Source of the DNA: Piscinibacter lacus
GTDB lineage: Bacteria; Pseudomonadota; Gammaproteobacteria; Burkholderiales; Burkholderiaceae_C
NCBI RefSeq assembly: GCF_016735685.1
Contig: NZ_JAERRA010000001.1
Location: 186,001 to 250,000 of the forward strand
Length of the DNA: 64,000 nucleotides
Reading direction: 5' to 3'
Shown here: in pieces, positions 39,396 to 45,881 of the stretch
Numbering within the stretch: the stretch's first letter is position 1
How the letters are laid out: each line of letters starts with the position of its first letter
Made by a program: the position numbers and the translations under genes
The notes under the pieces: generated by a model
The model's database searches: none
The model's input: only the letters and a program-made list of their open reading frames with translations
What the model was told of the DNA's origin: nothing

Positions 39396-40820
39396 TCAGG
39401 GCTCGGCAAGCAGCCAGCCGCCCAGGTTGCCGACCTGGGCGGCCAGGCGCAGCCGGGCGTCGTGCCAGGCCAGCACCGCCTCGACCTGCTCGCGCCGGGC
39501 GCGTGCCGCGTCCTGCTGGGCCGAGAGCCACTCGAACAGGCCCCCGGCGCCAGCGTTGAAGCGGGCGGCCAGGCCGTCGGAGGCGTCGCGGGTGTCGCGC
39601 ACCAGGCGGTCGACGGCTTCGATGCGCTGGTTCTGGGCGCGGGCCTCCTGCCAGCTCCGCCACAGGCTGCTTTCGACCTCGTTGCGCAGCTCGTCGGCCG
39701 AGGCCTCGGCCCGCTGCACTTCGGCGGCGGCGCCGCGGCGGCGGGCCGGGCCGGCGCCGCCCTCGAAGATCGGCACCTGCAACTGCACATTGGCCGAGCG
39801 CAGGCGGTCGACGATGAAGAGGCTGCCGTTGGGCGGCTGCTGGGTGCTCTGCTGGGCACTGAGGCTGAGCACGGGCCAATCCTCGGCCCGGGTGGCGGCC
39901 TGGCGGCCGCGGGCGGCCTCGGCCTCGGCGCGGGCCGCGAGCATGCGGGGATGCTGCTGCAAGGCTTCGTCGATCAAGGCCTGCGCATCGGCCGGCAGGG
40001 CCTGCGCGCTGGGCAGAAGGCGCAGGGCCGGCACGGTCAGCGCCGTGGTGGCCGACAGGCCCATGCGTCGCGCGAGCTCGCCACGCGCAGCCTCGGCGGC
40101 GGCCTCGGCATCGAGCCGGCCGAGGGTGGCGCGGCTCAGCGCGGCCTGGGCCTGCATCAGCTCGGCCCGAGCGGACACGCCGCCGGCCTGGCGGCCCTTC
40201 ACCCGCTCGGCGGTGCGCCGGGCGACTTGCTCGACCTCGACACTGGCCAGGCGCAGGGCTTCGGCGGCCTGGGCCAGGTGGTAGGCGCGCAGGGCGTCGA
40301 GCAGCTCGCTGCGCACGACGACATCCTGCGTGGCATTGGCCGAAGCCAGCAGGGCGCGGGCCTGCTGCTTGCGGCCGCTGCGCCGGCCGCCATCGAACAG
40401 CACCCAGTTCAGCCGCAGGCTCATGCCCTCGGTCTTGCTCGAAATGCTGACGGCCGGCTCGCGGTAGCGCTGGCGGGTCTCGTCGTAAATGGCGCCGGCT
40501 TGCAGCGTGGGCCAGTAGCTGGCTTCGACCACGCCGAGCTCGGCCGCACGCTGGCGGGCCAGGGCCCAGGCCCCGCGCGCCTTGGGTGACTGGCAGAGGC
40601 TGCGGGCGACCGCCTCATGCAGGCCCAGTGGCTGCGTGACCGGCCCCTCCGGACAGCCGGCCTGCTCGGGCGGCAGCGCAGCGGGCAGGGCCTGGGCTGC
40701 GCGGCGAAGCGCCTCCGGGCCATCCCCGGCCGGGGGCGGGGCCGAGACCGCGGGGAAAGCCAACAGCAGCCCGGCAAGCAGGCCGAGCACCGGCACGCCG
40801 CACCGGGCAAGGCGGCTCAT
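39396..40820 (-). CDS. TolC-like outer-membrane efflux protein
   Basis: 474 residues. It has a signal peptide MSRLARCGVPVLGLLAGLLLAFPAVSA, then two OEP repeats: the first around LGVVEASYWPTLQAGAIYDE and the second around VLSLSAQQST, with the typical long helical hairpins rich in Ala/Glu/Arg. It would form the outer-membrane channel of the type I exporter. Its ATG overlaps the stop of the ABC gene by 4 bases, so HlyD, ABC and TolC make one transcript. It serves the double-glycine peptides upstream by context. Confidence 0.93.
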   Translation of the reverse strand: MSRLARCGVPVLGLLAGLLLAFPAVSAPPPAGDGPEALRRAAQALPAALPPEQAGCPEGPVTQPLGLHEAVARSLCQSPKARGAWALARQRAAELGVVEASYWPTLQAGAIYDETRQRYREPAVSISSKTEGMSLRLNWVLFDGGRRSGRKQQARALLASANATQDVVVRSELLDALRAYHLAQAAEALRLASVEVEQVARRTAERVKGRQAGGVSARAELMQAQAALSRATLGRLDAEAAAEAARGELARRMGLSATTALTVPALRLLPSAQALPADAQALIDEALQQHPRMLAARAEAEAARGRQAATRAEDWPVLSLSAQQSTQQPPNGSLFIVDRLRSANVQLQVPIFEGGAGPARRRGAAAEVQRAEASADELRNEVESSLWRSWQEARAQNQRIEAVDRLVRDTRDASDGLAARFNAGAGGLFEWLSAQQDAARARREQVEAVLAWHDARLRLAAQVGNLGGWLLAEP

Positions 40821-43039
40821 GCGGTCTCGCCGGGCGAGGTGCCGGCTTCGAGGCGGGCGAGCAGCGCGGGCAGCTCGGCCGGGCCGGCGACGCTGACGAT
40901 GCGCCCGCCCTGCATCAGCGCGATGCGGTCGGCGCTGGCAATGGTCTGCGGCCGGTGCGCGATCAGGATGCGGCTGAGCTTGAGCCGCGCCACGGCCTGG
41001 CTGACGCGCTGCTCACTGGCCAAATCGAGGTGGCTGGTGGCTTCGTCGAGCACCAGCAGCCGCGGCCGCTTGTACAGCGCACGCGCCAGCAGCACCCGCT
41101 GCTGCTGGCCACCGGAGAGCACGGTGCCCATGTCGCCCACCAGAGTGTGGTAGCCCATGGGCAGCGCGACGATGTCGGCATGGATGTCGGCGGCGCGCGC
41201 ACATTCCTCCATCCAGGCCCGGTCGGGGGTGGCGTCGAAGAAGGTGATGTTGTCGGCGATGGAGCCGGCGAAGAGCGTGTCGGACTGGGTGACCGCGCCG
41301 GTCATGGCCCGCATCGCGTGGCGGCCCAGGCGCTCGCTGGGCACGCCGTCGACGAGGATCTGGCCGGCCGCCGGCTCGCGCAGGCCCAGCAGCAGGGCGG
41401 CCAGCGTGCTCTTGCCCGAGCCGGAGGCGCCGACGATGGCCAGCGAGCTGCCGGCCGGCAGGTCAAGGTCGAGGCCGTCGAGCACCCAGGGCAGGCCGTC
41501 GCCGTAGCGAAAGCGCAGGCCCTCTAGCCGCAGCGCCGGGGCCTGGCTGGGCGGGGGGGCATCGGCCGGCGTGGCGGGGCCCGGGTCCTGCGGCTTGGCC
41601 AGCGCGATGTCGGCCAGGCGCTCGCCGTGCAGGCGCAGCATGCGCAGCTCGAAGAGGCGGTCGATCAGCACGCTGACGCGGTGCGCGAACTGGTCCTTGT
41701 ACGCAATGAAGGCCAGCAGCGCACCGGCGGTGAAGACGCCGTCCAGCACCAGGCTCGCGCCGAAGGCGATCACGCCGACACGCTCCAGGCCGAACAGCAG
41801 GCCGTTGGCGAGGCGGTAGCCCAGCTCCAGCTTCTGGGTGCGCAGCTCGGCATTCATCTGCTCGACGACGCGGGCCAGCCAGGTGTCGCGGCGCTGCGGC
41901 TCGCGGCCGAAGAGCTGGATCGCACGGATGCCGCGCACGGTTTCGAGGAAGTGCGACTGCTGGCGCGCGGCGTGGACGATCTGCTCCTCGGTCGCCTCGC
42001 GCAGCGGGCGGTACCAGAGCATGCGCATCACGCCGTAGATCGTCATGGTGCCCAGCGCGACCGCAGCCAGCACCGGGCTGTAGAAGAACATCATCACCAG
42101 CACCAGCACCGACATCAGGCCGTCGAGCAGGGCCTCGACGAAGGACGAGGTGAGCGTGCGCTGGATGGTGTCGGCCGCGCCGAAGCGCGAGACCACATCG
42201 CCAAGATGCCGCACCTCGAAGAAGCCGGCCGGCAGCTTGAGCAAGTGGCTGAAGAGATTGGCCCGCCATTGCAGCGCCATGGTGGTCGACAGCACCAGCA
42301 GCAGCCAGCTTCGCAACAGCGAGATGAGCTGCTGCATCACGACCAGCGCGGCGAAGCCGATGGCGAGGAGGACCAGCAGGTCGAGATCGGCGCTGACCAG
42401 CACATGGTCCATCGTCCACTGCAGCATCAGCGGCGAAAGCAGGCCGAAAAGCTCCAGCACCAGGGCCAGGCCGATGATCTGCAGGCCGGCCGGCAGCCAG
42501 CCGCTGATGCGGCCGAGCAACTCGGTCACTTTGATACGACGCTCGACCTTGGCGGGCTTGAAACCGGGGTTGGGCCAGGCCTCCAGCGCCACCCCGGTGA
42601 AGGACTTGCCAACCTGGGCCCAGGGCACATGGCGCTGGCCGAGGCTGGGGTCGTGGATGGTGATGCCGCGGCGGTCGACCGCCGTCAGCACGACGAAGTG
42701 ATTGAAGTCCCAGTGCAGCACGGCAGGCATGCGCAGGTCCTTCATGTCCTCGACCTGCAGCTTGACCGCGCGGGTTGCGAGGTGCAGCGCGCCAGCCTGG
42801 GCCATCAGGCCAGCCAGGGTGGCACCGGCCAGCGAGACCTGGAAGTGTTGGCGCAGCGTGGCCAGGTCGATGCGCAGGCCGTGGTAGCCGGCCACCATGG
42901 CGAGGCAGGCGATGCCGCACTCCGCCGCCTCGGCCTGCAGCAGCACCGGGGTGCGGCGGCGCCCGCCGAAGTGCAGGCGGTTCAGCCAGGAGGCATGGGC
43001 TGCGGCGTCGGGCTTGGGCTTCGGGGAAGAGGGCGTCAT
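40817..43039 (-). CDS. Peptidase-containing ABC transporter (C39 leader peptidase + permease + ATPase)
   Basis: 740 residues. The N-terminal C39 domain has the catalytic Cys in AECGIACLAMVAGYHG (near 42), the His in HWDFNHFVVLT (near 115) and the Asp in IHDPSLGQ. Six membrane helices follow (about 180-450). The ATPase has Walker A GASGSGKST, signature LSGGQQQR, Walker B LLVLDEAT and the switch His in IAHR. Such proteins cut leaders after Gly-Gly while exporting the peptide. All catalytic residues are present. The substrates are most likely the three peptides at 44536-45747. Confidence 0.96.
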   Translation of the reverse strand: MTPSSPKPKPDAAAHASWLNRLHFGGRRRTPVLLQAEAAECGIACLAMVAGYHGLRIDLATLRQHFQVSLAGATLAGLMAQAGALHLATRAVKLQVEDMKDLRMPAVLHWDFNHFVVLTAVDRRGITIHDPSLGQRHVPWAQVGKSFTGVALEAWPNPGFKPAKVERRIKVTELLGRISGWLPAGLQIIGLALVLELFGLLSPLMLQWTMDHVLVSADLDLLVLLAIGFAALVVMQQLISLLRSWLLLVLSTTMALQWRANLFSHLLKLPAGFFEVRHLGDVVSRFGAADTIQRTLTSSFVEALLDGLMSVLVLVMMFFYSPVLAAVALGTMTIYGVMRMLWYRPLREATEEQIVHAARQQSHFLETVRGIRAIQLFGREPQRRDTWLARVVEQMNAELRTQKLELGYRLANGLLFGLERVGVIAFGASLVLDGVFTAGALLAFIAYKDQFAHRVSVLIDRLFELRMLRLHGERLADIALAKPQDPGPATPADAPPPSQAPALRLEGLRFRYGDGLPWVLDGLDLDLPAGSSLAIVGASGSGKSTLAALLLGLREPAAGQILVDGVPSERLGRHAMRAMTGAVTQSDTLFAGSIADNITFFDATPDRAWMEECARAADIHADIVALPMGYHTLVGDMGTVLSGGQQQRVLLARALYKRPRLLVLDEATSHLDLASEQRVSQAVARLKLSRILIAHRPQTIASADRIALMQGGRIVSVAGPAELPALLARLEAGTSPGETA

Positions 43040-43100
43040 GTCGGGGAAATCCGGATCACCGGCACCGGGCCGCGGGCACTGAAGGGGAGGAAGGGGCGGC

Positions 43101-44375
43101 TTACCAGCGGCTGGCCACGCCCAGCAGGGGCTCGAAAACCCATTCGATCAGGCGCCGCTTCTCGGCACGCAGGTCGGCCTCCAGCAACATGCCCGGCCGA
43201 AGCACGGCCGGGCCGCGCGGGCCATCCAGGGCCTGGGCCGGCAGGTCGACGGTCACCCGGAAGTAGGGCTCGGCCCCCTTCTGAAGTTGCGGGTGGAGGC
43301 CCAGGCCGATGTTGAGCAGTTCCTCGCCAAAGACCGGGGCCGGCGCGATCTCGCGCACCGTGCCCTGGTGATGGCCGAATTTCTGGAAGGGGAAAGCCTG
43401 GTAGCGCAGGAGCACCGTGTCCCCGGGCTTGAGGGGGCCGGCGGCGCGGCTGGGCGCATAGAGAACGGCCTGCAGGGGATCCTCGGGCGGCACGAGACGA
43501 AACAGGGTGCGACCGGCGTCCACCGACTGGCCGGCCTCGACGAGGACGGCAGCGACCACGGCATCGGCCGGCGCCACGAGTTGCAGGACGTGGCGGCCCT
43601 CGGCCTCCTCGCGCTCCTGGCCGGCCCGCGCGAGATCGCGCTCCAGCGCGGCGCGCTGCTTGCGCTGTCGCTCGGCCAACAGGGCGAGCTCGTCGCGGCG
43701 GCTCGCCAGCTCGCGTTGCAGAGCGGCGCGCTCGCGGGCCATGGCGCCGGCCCGGGCGCGCTGGTCCAGGGCGTCGGCGCGGCGCTGCTGCCACTCCTCG
43801 CGCGAAACATGGCCCGGTTCGACCAAGGCCTCATACCGGGCGCTCGACTCTTCGGAGAGCTCGACCCGGCGGTTCTGGAGCGCCAGGGCCTCGTCGAGGC
43901 GGGCCAGCTCGCTGCGCAGGCCGGCCACGCTGCGGGCCAGCGCGGCGCGCTCATCGGATTCGGCGGTGTCGGCGCGTTCCAGTTCCTGCTTGAGGGAATC
44001 TTCGCGGCGCTGCAAGAGCTCGGTGACGCCGGTCTCGACACTGCGGCCCTCAGCGCGACGCTCGAAACTCAGCGTACCGAGCAGCTCGCCCCGACGCACG
44101 GCCTGGCCTTCGCGCACGGCCAGCGTCTGCAACAGGCCGGGCGCGGGTGCGGCCACCCGCATCACGCCCCCGCTGGGTAGAAGTTGCCCGGCCACCGCGA
44201 CCCGGCGGGTGTATTGCCCGCCCAGCAGCAGCGCCAGCACCAGCAGGCCGCAGACCAATCCCAAGGCGACCCACCACCGGGTTGCGGGCGGCTGGGCCAG
44301 GACAATCTCGCCCAGACCTTGCCCGACGCGTGCGCGCAAGGCTTCTTCGCGGTACATCGGGGCGTCAGCGCTCAT
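43101..44375 (-). CDS. HlyD-family membrane fusion protein of the peptide exporter
   Basis: 424 residues. One N-terminal helix (about 35-55, WWVALGLVCGLLVLALLLGG) is followed by a lipoyl/barrel part, a long coiled coil (about 120-260, rich in Leu/Arg/Glu) and the C-terminal beta domain with PGMLLEADLRAEKRRLIEWVFEPLL, typical of bacteriocin HlyD proteins. The start at 44375 begins MSADAPMYREEAL; the longer frame to 44450 lacks support. It links the ABC protein to the TolC channel. The gap to the ABC gene is 61 bp. Confidence 0.94.
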   Translation of the reverse strand: MSADAPMYREEALRARVGQGLGEIVLAQPPATRWWVALGLVCGLLVLALLLGGQYTRRVAVAGQLLPSGGVMRVAAPAPGLLQTLAVREGQAVRRGELLGTLSFERRAEGRSVETGVTELLQRREDSLKQELERADTAESDERAALARSVAGLRSELARLDEALALQNRRVELSEESSARYEALVEPGHVSREEWQQRRADALDQRARAGAMARERAALQRELASRRDELALLAERQRKQRAALERDLARAGQEREEAEGRHVLQLVAPADAVVAAVLVEAGQSVDAGRTLFRLVPPEDPLQAVLYAPSRAAGPLKPGDTVLLRYQAFPFQKFGHHQGTVREIAPAPVFGEELLNIGLGLHPQLQKGAEPYFRVTVDLPAQALDGPRGPAVLRPGMLLEADLRAEKRRLIEWVFEPLLGVASRW

Positions 44376-44456
44376 GGCGTGAGGACATCGCGGGCTGCGG
44401 TGGAGTTGCGGGCGAAGTTGAACAAACTCTTGGATCCACGGGAAGCACAAGCGCAG

Positions 44457-44488
44457 AAAAGCGAAACGCCCGCAGTGGGGCGTTTCGC
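44457..44488 (-). terminator. Rho-independent terminator between peptide gene 1 and hlyD
   Basis: A perfect 10-bp stem, GCGAAACGCC with GGCGTTTCGC, encloses an 8-base loop and is followed by TTTT on the minus strand. It lies 47 bp after the peptide stop. It isolates abundant peptide mRNA from the exporter genes, which must then rely on read-through or their own promoter. Confidence 0.88.
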
Positions 44489-44535
44489 GCAGTCGGCCGG
44501 CCGTTCAGATGAACGGGCCGGTGACCCAAGCCGGA

Positions 44536-44730
44536 TCAGCCCAGCTTGATGCCGCCCAGCAGGCCGCCCAGCAGACCGGTCACGGTCGACAGCAGGCCGC
44601 CCAGCAGGCCGGTCACGGTGCCCAGCAGGCCGCTGACCAGCGAGGTCACGGGGGACAGCAGGCCGCCGAGGTCCAGCAGGCCGCCGGAAACTTGCTCGAC
44701 TTCTTGACGGTTCAGTTCTTGGATCGCCAT
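44536..44730 (-). CDS. Double-glycine leader peptide 1, Gly/Leu repeat type
   Basis: 64 residues. The leader MAIQELNRQEVEQVSGG has the GG-leader pattern with hydrophobic residues at fixed steps before Gly-Gly, and cleavage would leave a 47-residue peptide. The mature part contains three tandem 11-residue units (PVTSLVSGLLG, TVTGLLGGLLS, TVTGLLGGLLG) and ends GIKLG. It has no Cys and almost no charge, so a membrane-active or self-assembling peptide is likely. AAGGA precedes the ATG. It lies beside the C39 ABC transporter, which fits as its processing exporter. No similarity to a named bacteriocin is recognised. Confidence 0.85.
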   Translation of the reverse strand: MAIQELNRQEVEQVSGGLLDLGGLLSPVTSLVSGLLGTVTGLLGGLLSTVTGLLGGLLGGIKLG

Positions 44731-45038
44731 GTCAATTCCTTAGATCGTGGTTTGTACTCGAAGGGGGGGTGCCGGCAGAGGCCCTGCAGAACCTCTGCCT
44801 GCCTTCGGGACCGGCCGGGTCTTGTGGATCCCGGCCAGCACCTGAGGCAGCCGCACTTTAGAGGTGCAACACCGCGTGACTTGTGCGAAGTTGCTAGCAA
44901 TCATGAGCAGCGGTTGCACTTCTCACAGAGCAAGCTCTGGCCCGCCGAGCGTTTCCTTGCGTCGATGCACGACGCGCCACGATCCAGGCCGGGTTGCACA
45001 GCGATCTGTGCCTTGGGCCACCGGGCCCCGGGCCAGGC
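44731..45038 (-). promoter_or_regulatory. Upstream region of peptide gene 1
   Basis: This 308-bp gap has no gene. TAAAGT at 44855-44860 (minus strand) is a possible -10 without a good -35. It lies about 124 bp before the ATG. A perfect 10-bp palindrome TTGCTAGCAA (44891-44900) is 30 bp upstream of it and could be an operator. The transcribed leader can form a GGCAGAGG/CCTCTGCC hairpin. Confidence 0.4.
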
Positions 45039-45230
45039 TCAGCCCAGGCGGAGACCGCCAAGCAAGCCGCCCACGACCTTGACGACCAGCGACAGCGTGG
45101 GGCCAAGCAGTTGGCCCAGCGTGTTGATCAAGCCCCCGATGATGGTGTTGGTGGGGCCCAGCAAGGTGCCGAGGCTGATGCCGCCGGCGACTTGCTTGAT
45201 TTCCTGACAGTTCAATTCCTGGATGGCCAT
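45039..45230 (-). CDS. Double-glycine leader peptide 2
   Basis: 63 residues. The leader MAIQELNCQEIKQVAGG differs from peptide 1 at only four positions, and the sequence around the ATG (AAGGAAT...) is also alike, so the two are duplicates. The predicted mature part (46 residues) starts ISLGTLLGP, repeats LLGPT twice about 18 residues apart, and ends GGLLGGLRLG, close to the end of peptide 1. It is hydrophobic, with only Lys and Arg near the end. The longer frame to 45347 is rejected because the leader begins here. Confidence 0.85.
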   Translation of the reverse strand: MAIQELNCQEIKQVAGGISLGTLLGPTNTIIGGLINTLGQLLGPTLSLVVKVVGGLLGGLRLG

Positions 45231-45537
45231 GGTGATTCCTTGGGTTGCGGTTCGCTGCTGAGAAACTGCCCAAACCCATGCCGGGCTTTGAGCGCCACCT
45301 GCCAGACAGTCAAGGAGAAACCCTTGAGCCCAGGTGTGGTAATTCAACTCTAGGGGATCAGCCCAGCCCTTGCGTAAGCATGTGCTACGAAGTGCACAGA
45401 ATGTTTCGGATGTGAGCTGATGCTACCGAGAAACCGGGTGCGGCGCCCCGGCAGGGGCGCTTGCCGGGAGCGGGCACGAGAATCTGGCCCCGCGGAGACG
45501 CCGAACCCTCTGGCGAGGGGCTCGCGCGCCGCTTGAA
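45231..45537 (-). promoter_or_regulatory. Upstream region of peptide gene 2 with -10-like box
   Basis: The 307-bp gap has no gene. TAGAGT at 45347-45352 on the minus strand shares its surroundings, CCTAGAGT(C/T)GA, with the promoter of peptide 3 and lies 116 bp before the ATG. The -35 region is poor. Near 45450 a GCGCCCC/GGGGCGC stem without T-tract follows peptide gene 3. Confidence 0.4.
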
Positions 45538-45747
45538 TCAGCCGCCGATCGTGCCCAGCAGGCCGCCAATCACGGGCAGCCCCTTCAGCAAGCCGGTCAG
45601 GCCGCCGAGCAGGCTGCTGATCAGGGTGAAGATGCCGTTCGGCGTCAGGTCGAGCGAGCCGTTGAGAATCGGGTTGCTGCCAATCGACAGCAGCAGACCG
45701 CCGGAGACTTGCTCGATTTCCGGCTGCGACAGGTTTTGAATGGACAT
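45538..45747 (-). CDS. Double-glycine leader peptide 3
   Basis: 69 residues. The leader MSIQNLSQPEIEQVSGG keeps the pattern of peptides 1 and 2, and the predicted mature part has 52 residues. It begins LLLSIGSNPILNG and ends with Gly/Leu repeats FTLISSLLGGLTGLLKGL and IGGLLGTIGG. It is more divergent and lacks the 11-residue repeats. GAGGAG precedes the ATG. It has the strongest promoter of the three. Confidence 0.85.
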   Translation of the reverse strand: MSIQNLSQPEIEQVSGGLLLSIGSNPILNGSLDLTPNGIFTLISSLLGGLTGLLKGLPVIGGLLGTIGG

Positions 45748-45852: not shown

Positions 45853-45881
45853 ACTCTAGGGAGCTGACATATTGGCGTCAA
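45853..45881 (-). promoter_or_regulatory. Promoter of peptide gene 3
   Basis: The minus strand has TTGACG (45876-45881), a 17-bp spacer and TAGAGT (45853-45858), close to sigma-70 consensus. Transcription would begin near 45846 and leave about 98 nt before the peptide ATG. The rest of 45748-45997 shows no gene. Confidence 0.65.

Follow-up and report, generated by a model that had tools for sequence, protein, structure and literature searches.

A three-peptide double-glycine export cassette in Piscinibacter lacus and a possible surface role for its Leu- and Gly-rich products

Within the window, by which we mean the whole 64,000-nucleotide stretch of Piscinibacter lacus DNA that was analysed, three genes for double-glycine peptides (P1, P2 and P3) lie upstream of hlyD, followed by a C39-type ABC exporter gene and tolC, all on the minus strand (Table 1). 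A preliminary description of this DNA had placed HlyD, a C39 ABC transporter with full catalytic residues and TolC beside the peptides, and Pfam confirms all three; Gln, Cys, His and Asp are present in the C39 domain (QAEAAECG ... HFVV ... HDPS), and Cys, His and Asp are the residue set named for CvaB (PMC9746304). The whole genome contains one C39 domain. Each peptide ATG is preceded, 5–6 bases upstream, by a purine-rich stretch resembling a ribosome-binding site (AAGGA or GAGGAG). For P2 the start was taken as the ATG at 45230; the mechanical ORF extends upstream to a TTG at 45347. A terminator-like hairpin occupies the gap between peptide gene and hlyD in 8 of 12 such gaps, exceeding all 60 base shuffles. 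A 118-aa thioredoxin-like gene (thioredoxin by Pfam) adjoins P3.

Table 1 Features of the peptide export cassette, in window positions.
Feature	Position	Strand	Basis
tolC-type outer-membrane channel	39396..40820	-	Pfam; start overlaps ABC stop
C39-peptidase ABC exporter, 740 aa, catalytic residues complete	40817..43039	-	Pfam
hlyD-type membrane fusion protein	43101..44375	-	Pfam; start ATG 44375 picked from A. albus homologue
Terminator-like hairpin, 11 pairs and T-rich tail, between P1 and hlyD	44461..44488	-	
P1, double-glycine precursor, 64 aa, mature 47 aa	44536..44730	-	Family profile E 1.8e-26 (profile includes P1)
P2, double-glycine precursor, 63 aa, mature 46 aa	45039..45230	-	Family profile E 1.7e-20 (profile includes P2)
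P3, double-glycine precursor, 69 aa, mature 52 aa	45538..45747	-	Family profile E 6.3e-15 (profile includes P3)
Sigma-70-like promoter upstream of P3, TTGACG-17-TAGAGT	45853..45881	-	Consensus match only

The three peptide genes and their 17-residue leaders (MAIQELNRQEVEQVSGG, MAIQELNCQEIKQVAGG and MSIQNLSQPEIEQVSGG, all ending in GG) are confirmed, and the mature parts agree with the earlier account of them as Cys-free, almost uncharged and 46–52 residues long. Each mature part has two charged residues and 13–17 Leu; one Cys occurs in the P2 leader. Predicted average masses for the three mature forms are 4387.2, 4480.4 and 5042.0 Da. The C-terminal ends of the peptides are IKLG, LRLG and TIGG, and the P1 gene carries 33-base (11-codon) direct repeats. 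None of the Pfam and NCBIfam models scored over its own cut-off on P1, P2 or P3. A family profile that includes all three peptides gave exactly three matches in the whole genome, all of them P1–P3, and a leader pattern written from the same peptides occurs three times in the six frames of the window. In a literature search that reached a minority of subscription journals, we found no paper containing the string MAIQEL, none joining double-glycine, glycine zipper, type I secretion and microcin, and none joining bacteriocin, double-glycine, type I secretion and betaproteobacteria.

Related sets, with one to four peptides per locus, are scattered patchily among other bacteria. The profile search found 127 related proteins. 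Among 126 sequences examined for leader length (two duplicate P1 and P3), 8 did not fit the leader pattern, and the leader is exactly 17 residues long in 108 of the 118 that did, the pattern allowing 14–19. Related HlyD and ABC genes lie within 10 kb at 14 of the 17 loci found via the peptide. The pairing of leader and exporter that the preliminary description had proposed to look for in relatives is thus present, and there is good support for a system that exports double-glycine peptides. Scanning 300 genomes of the order and 369 of the class gave family-profile matches of any kind, not all of them true members, in 5 and 4 genomes respectively. Weak matches without a leader (G225, G417 and G540) or with a different one (G134 and G428) were not counted as members; in G042 the match is confined to the leader. 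Together these results outline the exported glycine-striped peptides as a family that can be recognised.

The mature parts diverge faster than the exporter, with dN of 0.20–0.70 versus 0.04–0.07 for the exporter proteins. The P3 leader diverges as fast as the P3 mature part, so a fixed leader with a fast cargo does not describe all three peptides. Fast divergence of the mature parts fits antagonism as well as it fits a loosely constrained structural role. A mobile cassette was first considered because thioredoxin, DUF1501, DUF1800, SSB and RecQ were unmatched in 20 kb around the A. albus locus. In the whole genome of A. albus (G001), a member of the same genus, one contig carries a left-flank match of 290 bases, the cassette and the flank with SSB and RecQ, in the order and strand of the window and with extra DNA between them, and the DUF1800/DUF1501 pair matches another contig. 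Since flanks and cassette are collinear there, the mobile-cassette reading was dropped.

Small residues every 11/3 residues are the mark of a striped helix. Of 59 non-redundant mature parts, each tested singly at p<0.05, 40 show this period (38 in another run); the same test at four control periods gave 1, 0, 3 and 3 of 59, and among other double-glycine peptides, hand-picked from more and differing from the family in composition, it gave 0 of 7. The period is clear in P1, weak in P2 (p 0.03) and absent from P3 (p 0.55). AlphaFold predicts the mature part of P1 as one 43-residue helix (residues 21–63, mean pLDDT 83.7); the model of P3 is poor (pLDDT 60.9). GxxxG counts are barely above those of composition shuffles (p about 0.03 for P1 and P2, 0.18 for P3). 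P1 and most of the family look like helices along which a stripe of small residues recurs every 11 residues, or three turns.

The reading we favour, with a probability of roughly 0.4, is that the peptides are retained at the cell surface, associate with one another and serve contact between cells or with surfaces. The three small precursors would probably be made in larger amounts than the exporter, whose C39 domain most likely cuts each of them after Gly-Gly, and the ABC-HlyD-TolC channel would place the mature part outside. Nearly neutral, Leu/Gly-rich striped helices are expected to pack together or in a membrane, not to be soluble, so the peptides probably stay on the outer surface. That surface would then hold self-associated helical peptide material with an adhesive role in cell-cell or cell-surface contact; for peptides gathered there, adhesion and contact killing are both roles that they may have. 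Genes with a LapA-type retention module lie no more than 10 kb from a family peptide in 4 of 14 genomes and at 4 of 17 above-cut-off places, and a rough estimate of the number expected is about 0.15. The retention_LapA model has no match anywhere in the genomes of the window or of A. albus, which counts against surface adhesion. In Synechococcus, the double-glycine EbfG proteins are described as enabling biofilm (PMC4997328; PMC9981879). We count in favour of surface material (i) the leader-exporter pairing and the 17-residue leader, (ii) the 11/3 period and the predicted P1 helix, (iii) the hairpin, (iv) the lack of a hydrophobic small ORF in the cassette and (v) the LapA neighbours and the EbfG parallel; against it stand the aperiodic and poorly modelled P3, the weak period of P2, the slight GxxxG excess and the fast mature divergence.

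A bolder form of this proposal, which we consider unlikely, is that the peptides form a distinct exported class in which an 11-residue glycine-striped helix takes the place of cross-beta amyloid as the building unit of a helical coat or fibre outside the cell. The leader-exporter pair would be the steadier part, the cargo would diversify or be exchanged, and some bacteria would have LapA-type adhesins as partners. If so, surface peptides built as helices with an 11-residue repeat would stand beside functional amyloid as an uncommon alternative.

Contact-dependent killing is a credible, if tentative, alternative: glycine-zipper peptides held at the surface would enter the membrane of a neighbouring cell on contact and make it permeable, as in the Cdz system. 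The kinds of gene agree (ABC, HlyD and small glycine-zipper proteins with Gly-Gly-type leaders), as do the presence of one to four peptides per locus, the patchy distribution and the faster divergence of mature parts than of exporter, and adhesion genes lie beside some loci, as noted for Cdz-like regions (PMC5380434). The published search for such regions used proteins of 60–151 residues whose leader ends in G[G/A/S], with genes for type I secretion no more than 10 kb away and with one or two GxxxGxxxG motifs free of Pro and charge (PMC5380434). Our precursors have 64, 63 and 69 residues, leaders ending in GG and an exporter within that distance; the strict motif occurs twice in P1, once in P3 and not in P2, and in 47 of 59 non-redundant family members. 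Against killing by contact, a charged or polar C-terminal tail is weak or absent, the P3 leader departs from the pattern of fixed leader and fast cargo, and no CdzI-like gene was found in the cassette.

The last point rests on several searches. A simple hydrophobicity scan found no hydrophobic small ORF, and so no CdzI-like small transmembrane gene, within the window cassette; the one of 16 window ORFs that passed the limit lies outside it, antisense to thioredoxin/SSB. Two of 17 ORFs passed in A. albus, one of 38 aa overlapping the P2 start and one of 109 aa just past tolC; Pfam assigns the second to cytochrome c, and the genome of the window has relatives of it. No immunity gene emerged by conservation among 18 loci (ORFs of at least 30 aa, E at most 1e-4, common to at least three other loci), and in the listed maps of 16 loci no family beyond exporter, peptides, adhesins and regulators was common to several. 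The thioredoxin-like gene by P3 fits an immunity gene in size and distance, yet is a thioredoxin by Pfam. CdzI-like immunity genes are described as hard to identify (PMC5380434), and a fast-evolving or distant one may have escaped these searches.

We regard a diffusible class II microcin or bacteriocin as improbable. All components described for class II microcins are present, namely a double-glycine precursor, a C39 ABC protein with Cys, His and Asp, a fusion protein and TolC (PMC9746304), and one source names an A. albus peptide 'Bacteriocin'. Weak matches (E at most 0.01) to Pfam Bacteriocin_IIc came from 2 of 42 family members, and 3 of 42 weakly matched NCBIfam lactococcin G-beta; P1 and P2 match TIGR03949 below its cut-off, and P1 reaches 15.6 bits against a gathering cut-off of 27.1 for PF10439 (Bacteriocin_IIc), which P2 and P3 do not match. 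These few weak matches, and glycine-zipper features in common with Cdz as described in PMC5380434, make the earlier phrase 'unlike any bacteriocin class' too strong. On the other side, the only immunity candidate that turned up is the thioredoxin-like gene next to P3, and near-zero charge with strong hydrophobicity makes free diffusion unlikely. The preliminary interpretation is supported in part: the export system stands, a bacteriocin identity is tentative at most, and no immunity gene was found. Least probable of all is a role as secreted signals or as autolysis peptides resembling the gonococcal Naps, double-glycine peptides that promote autolysis with no antimicrobial activity detected in the published account (PMC11798529): three loci (L022, L025 and L028, two of them close relatives) have neighbouring genes for PAS histidine kinases, but none was recognised beside the window cassette or, in the maps as listed, beside the other loci, the Naps are cationic whereas P1–P3 are near neutral, and the mature sequences probably vary too much for a receptor-matched signal.

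Among known systems, the class II microcins have the exporter arrangement in common with this cassette (PMC9746304), which differs in its very hydrophobic, near-neutral peptides and in that no immunity gene was found. The Nap island likewise has three double-glycine peptides predicted to be helical; the secretion genes named in it encode a C39 peptidase and a channel of the FapF type, and it also includes an immunity-like gene along with a possible regulator (PMC11798529). The closest known systems are Caulobacter Cdz and cyanobacterial EbfG. EbfG1-4/PteB of Synechococcus elongatus is alike by description, in that several small proteins of the double-glycine kind depend on a cysteine-peptidase transporter for efficient secretion, and is set apart in that EbfG1-3 are reported to form amyloid (PMC4997328; PMC9981879), whereas the peptides here look helical. 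Cdz of Caulobacter crescentus (CdzABCDI), as described in PMC5380434, has small glycine-zipper peptides, often several, with a Gly-Gly-type leader end, adjoining type I ABC and HlyD genes and a patchy distribution. It differs in its CdzI, for which no counterpart was found here, in a cdz cluster without tolC, which lies inside our cassette, and in the peptides themselves: CdzC/D have 86 and 84 residues and are rich in Gly and the small hydrophobic A, V and I (PMC5380434), whereas P1–P3 have 63–69 residues and are Leu-rich. The 11-residue period and the hairpin between peptide gene and hlyD are features of the present cassette, unlike Cdz.

The cassette comprises three short precursor peptide genes (P1, P2 and P3) together with genes for HlyD, a C39-ABC exporter and TolC, the last ending 3 bases from a convergent DUF1501 gene. 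Each peptide has a 17-residue leader ending in Gly-Gly and a Cys-free mature part (47, 46 and 52 residues in P1, P2 and P3) that contains two charged residues, and the leader-coding DNA of the three genes is 74-75% alike to the P1 copy at a spacing of ~500 bases. The exporter's C39 domain, the only one found in this genome, retains the Gln, Cys, His and Asp, and a peptide profile built with P1-P3 included gave three matches genome-wide, all in the cassette. Given established knowledge of C39 exporters, this one very likely cuts the peptides after Gly-Gly and exports them.

Features of the peptide-export cassette (window coordinates)
Feature	Position	Strand	Remark
P3	45538-45747	minus	first in transcription order
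P2	45039-45230	minus	second in transcription order
P1	44536-44730	minus	third in transcription order
Terminator-like hairpin	44488-44461	minus	between P1 and hlyD; 11 pairs, T-rich tail
hlyD	43101-44375	minus	fourth in transcription order
C39-ABC exporter	40817-43039	minus	fifth in transcription order
tolC	39396-40820	minus	last in transcription order

The hairpin rests on strength and position, not number, since the hairpin-finding tool returned 2 sites in the scanned stretch versus 2.8 in shuffles. In a separate scan, a hairpin scoring above all 60 base shuffles occurred in 8 of 12 peptide-to-hlyD gaps (the window and the loci L014, L015, L016, L019, L021, L024 and L028 from other genome records; some tails have just 4 T); none did so in L020, L022, L025 or L027, and none stood out between the window's own peptide genes. 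Because a terminator-like hairpin precedes hlyD, we infer that peptide is made in excess over exporter.

A single-peptide query retrieved 53 related proteins and an alignment of 42 sequences retrieved 127, with scoring limited to the 7994 candidates sharing most words; none of the 120 family proteins listed (of 127) carries a precomputed Pfam domain. Named genome records contain 17 family loci, with hosts including Aquariibacter albus, Parasulfuritortus, Rhodocyclaceae, Dechloromonas, Thiobacillus, Gallionellaceae, Sulfuricella, Methylophilus, Solimonas and Nevskiales. One of the 17, L013, is near-identical to the window; its contig, titled a Rhodobacteraceae MAG and perhaps misbinned, carries almost the same peptides and HlyD (HlyD 99.8%). 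Related HlyD and ABC genes are present in the fetched stretch at 14 of the 17 loci, the contig stopping inside the ABC gene in two. They were not found in the fetched stretches of L017 and L023, whose strains have an exporter at second loci (L015, L029), or in L026, a Methylophilus stretch of 10.6 kb. Matches occurred in 5/300 genomes of an order-level sample (clear in the window's own and G097; leader only in G042) and 4/369 of a class-level sample (clear in the window's own only), and the family looks rare in the sampled genomes.

In a 28-row exporter tree, the 13 full-length family-locus exporters, including the window's (the set excludes L013 and L019, which are truncated), form one supported set with L045, L048 and L058 (16/28 rows, support 100/98). 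The family label needs three changes on this tree and 0/500 shuffles need so few, a result that near-copies favour. The window and A. albus exporters share a long branch of uncertain exact placement. At L045:4953-5135, a family-type leader (MAIQQLSMKEIDEVSGG) precedes a 43-aa cargo rich in Cys, Phe and Pro; in this single case leader and exporter are kept and the cargo is different, possibly through a cargo swap.

Between the window and A. albus, the DNA of the cassette core shows 86% identity; its order is preserved and the flanks are shared, with additional DNA on either side in A. albus. Values of dN are 0.038 for HlyD, 0.041 for ABC and 0.071 for TolC and, over few codons, 0.23, 0.70 and 0.20 for the mature parts of P1, P2 and P3 (repeats make the P2 alignment uncertain) and 0.03, 0.13 and 0.22 for their leaders; thus, in P3, leader and cargo change equally fast. 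The DUF1800/DUF1501 pair adjoining the cassette (window:36478-39389) has a 72% match on a different A. albus contig, and that flank therefore differs between the species.

In a non-redundant set of 42 mature parts, small residues, counted as Gly, Ser, Ala and Thr, are repeated at lags of 4, 7, 11, 15, 18 and 22. The strongest period is 3.667; its pooled z-score overstates significance because the peptides are relatives. Tested singly, 40/59 mature parts reach p<0.05 (38/59 in another run), whereas the control periods gave 1, 0, 3 and 3 of 59, and hand-picked other double-glycine peptides 0/7. In the window, shuffles matched P1 in 0/2000 cases and gave p 0.03 for P2; P3 has no such period (p 0.55). 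AlphaFold predicts a helix at 21-63 in P1 (mean pLDDT 83.7, pTM 0.45) and at 36-68 in P3 (mean pLDDT 60.9). The striped, near-neutral and hydrophobic character of the predicted helices favours their self-association at a membrane or other surface.

No hydrophobic immunity candidate (ORFs of at least 35 aa, hydrophobicity 1.6 over 19 residues) was found within the window cassette outside its genes; the nearest small neighbour is a thioredoxin-like gene adjoining P3. Genes for LapA-type (retention-module) adhesins adjoin L015, L019, L021 and L028, each with retention_LapA (NCBIfam) over cut-off. This model exceeds its cut-off at 17 places in 7/14 genomes, and a family peptide lies <10 kb from four of them (three within 1 kb, one at ~9 kb), against a chance expectation of ~0.15, roughly estimated without allowing for contig breaks. 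Neither the window's genome nor that of A. albus gave a retention_LapA match. The L015 adhesin (L015:10855-18012) is a giant LapA/Bap-type protein (2385 aa) that carries a type I secretion domain at its C-terminus. Its gene follows a family peptide gene downstream and shares its strand, and the adjacent exporter might serve both. PAS-histidine kinases adjoin L022, L025 and L028, and small ORFs near two of these (L022:6099-6263, L028:5756-5929), which we take by eye to resemble Flp pilins, had no match in an NCBIfam search.

Because no immunity gene was found and some relatives have adhesin partners, we lean towards the peptides being surface material (probability roughly 0.42). Close behind, and plausible if somewhat less probable, is a contact toxin like Cdz, the glycine-zipper system of Caulobacter.
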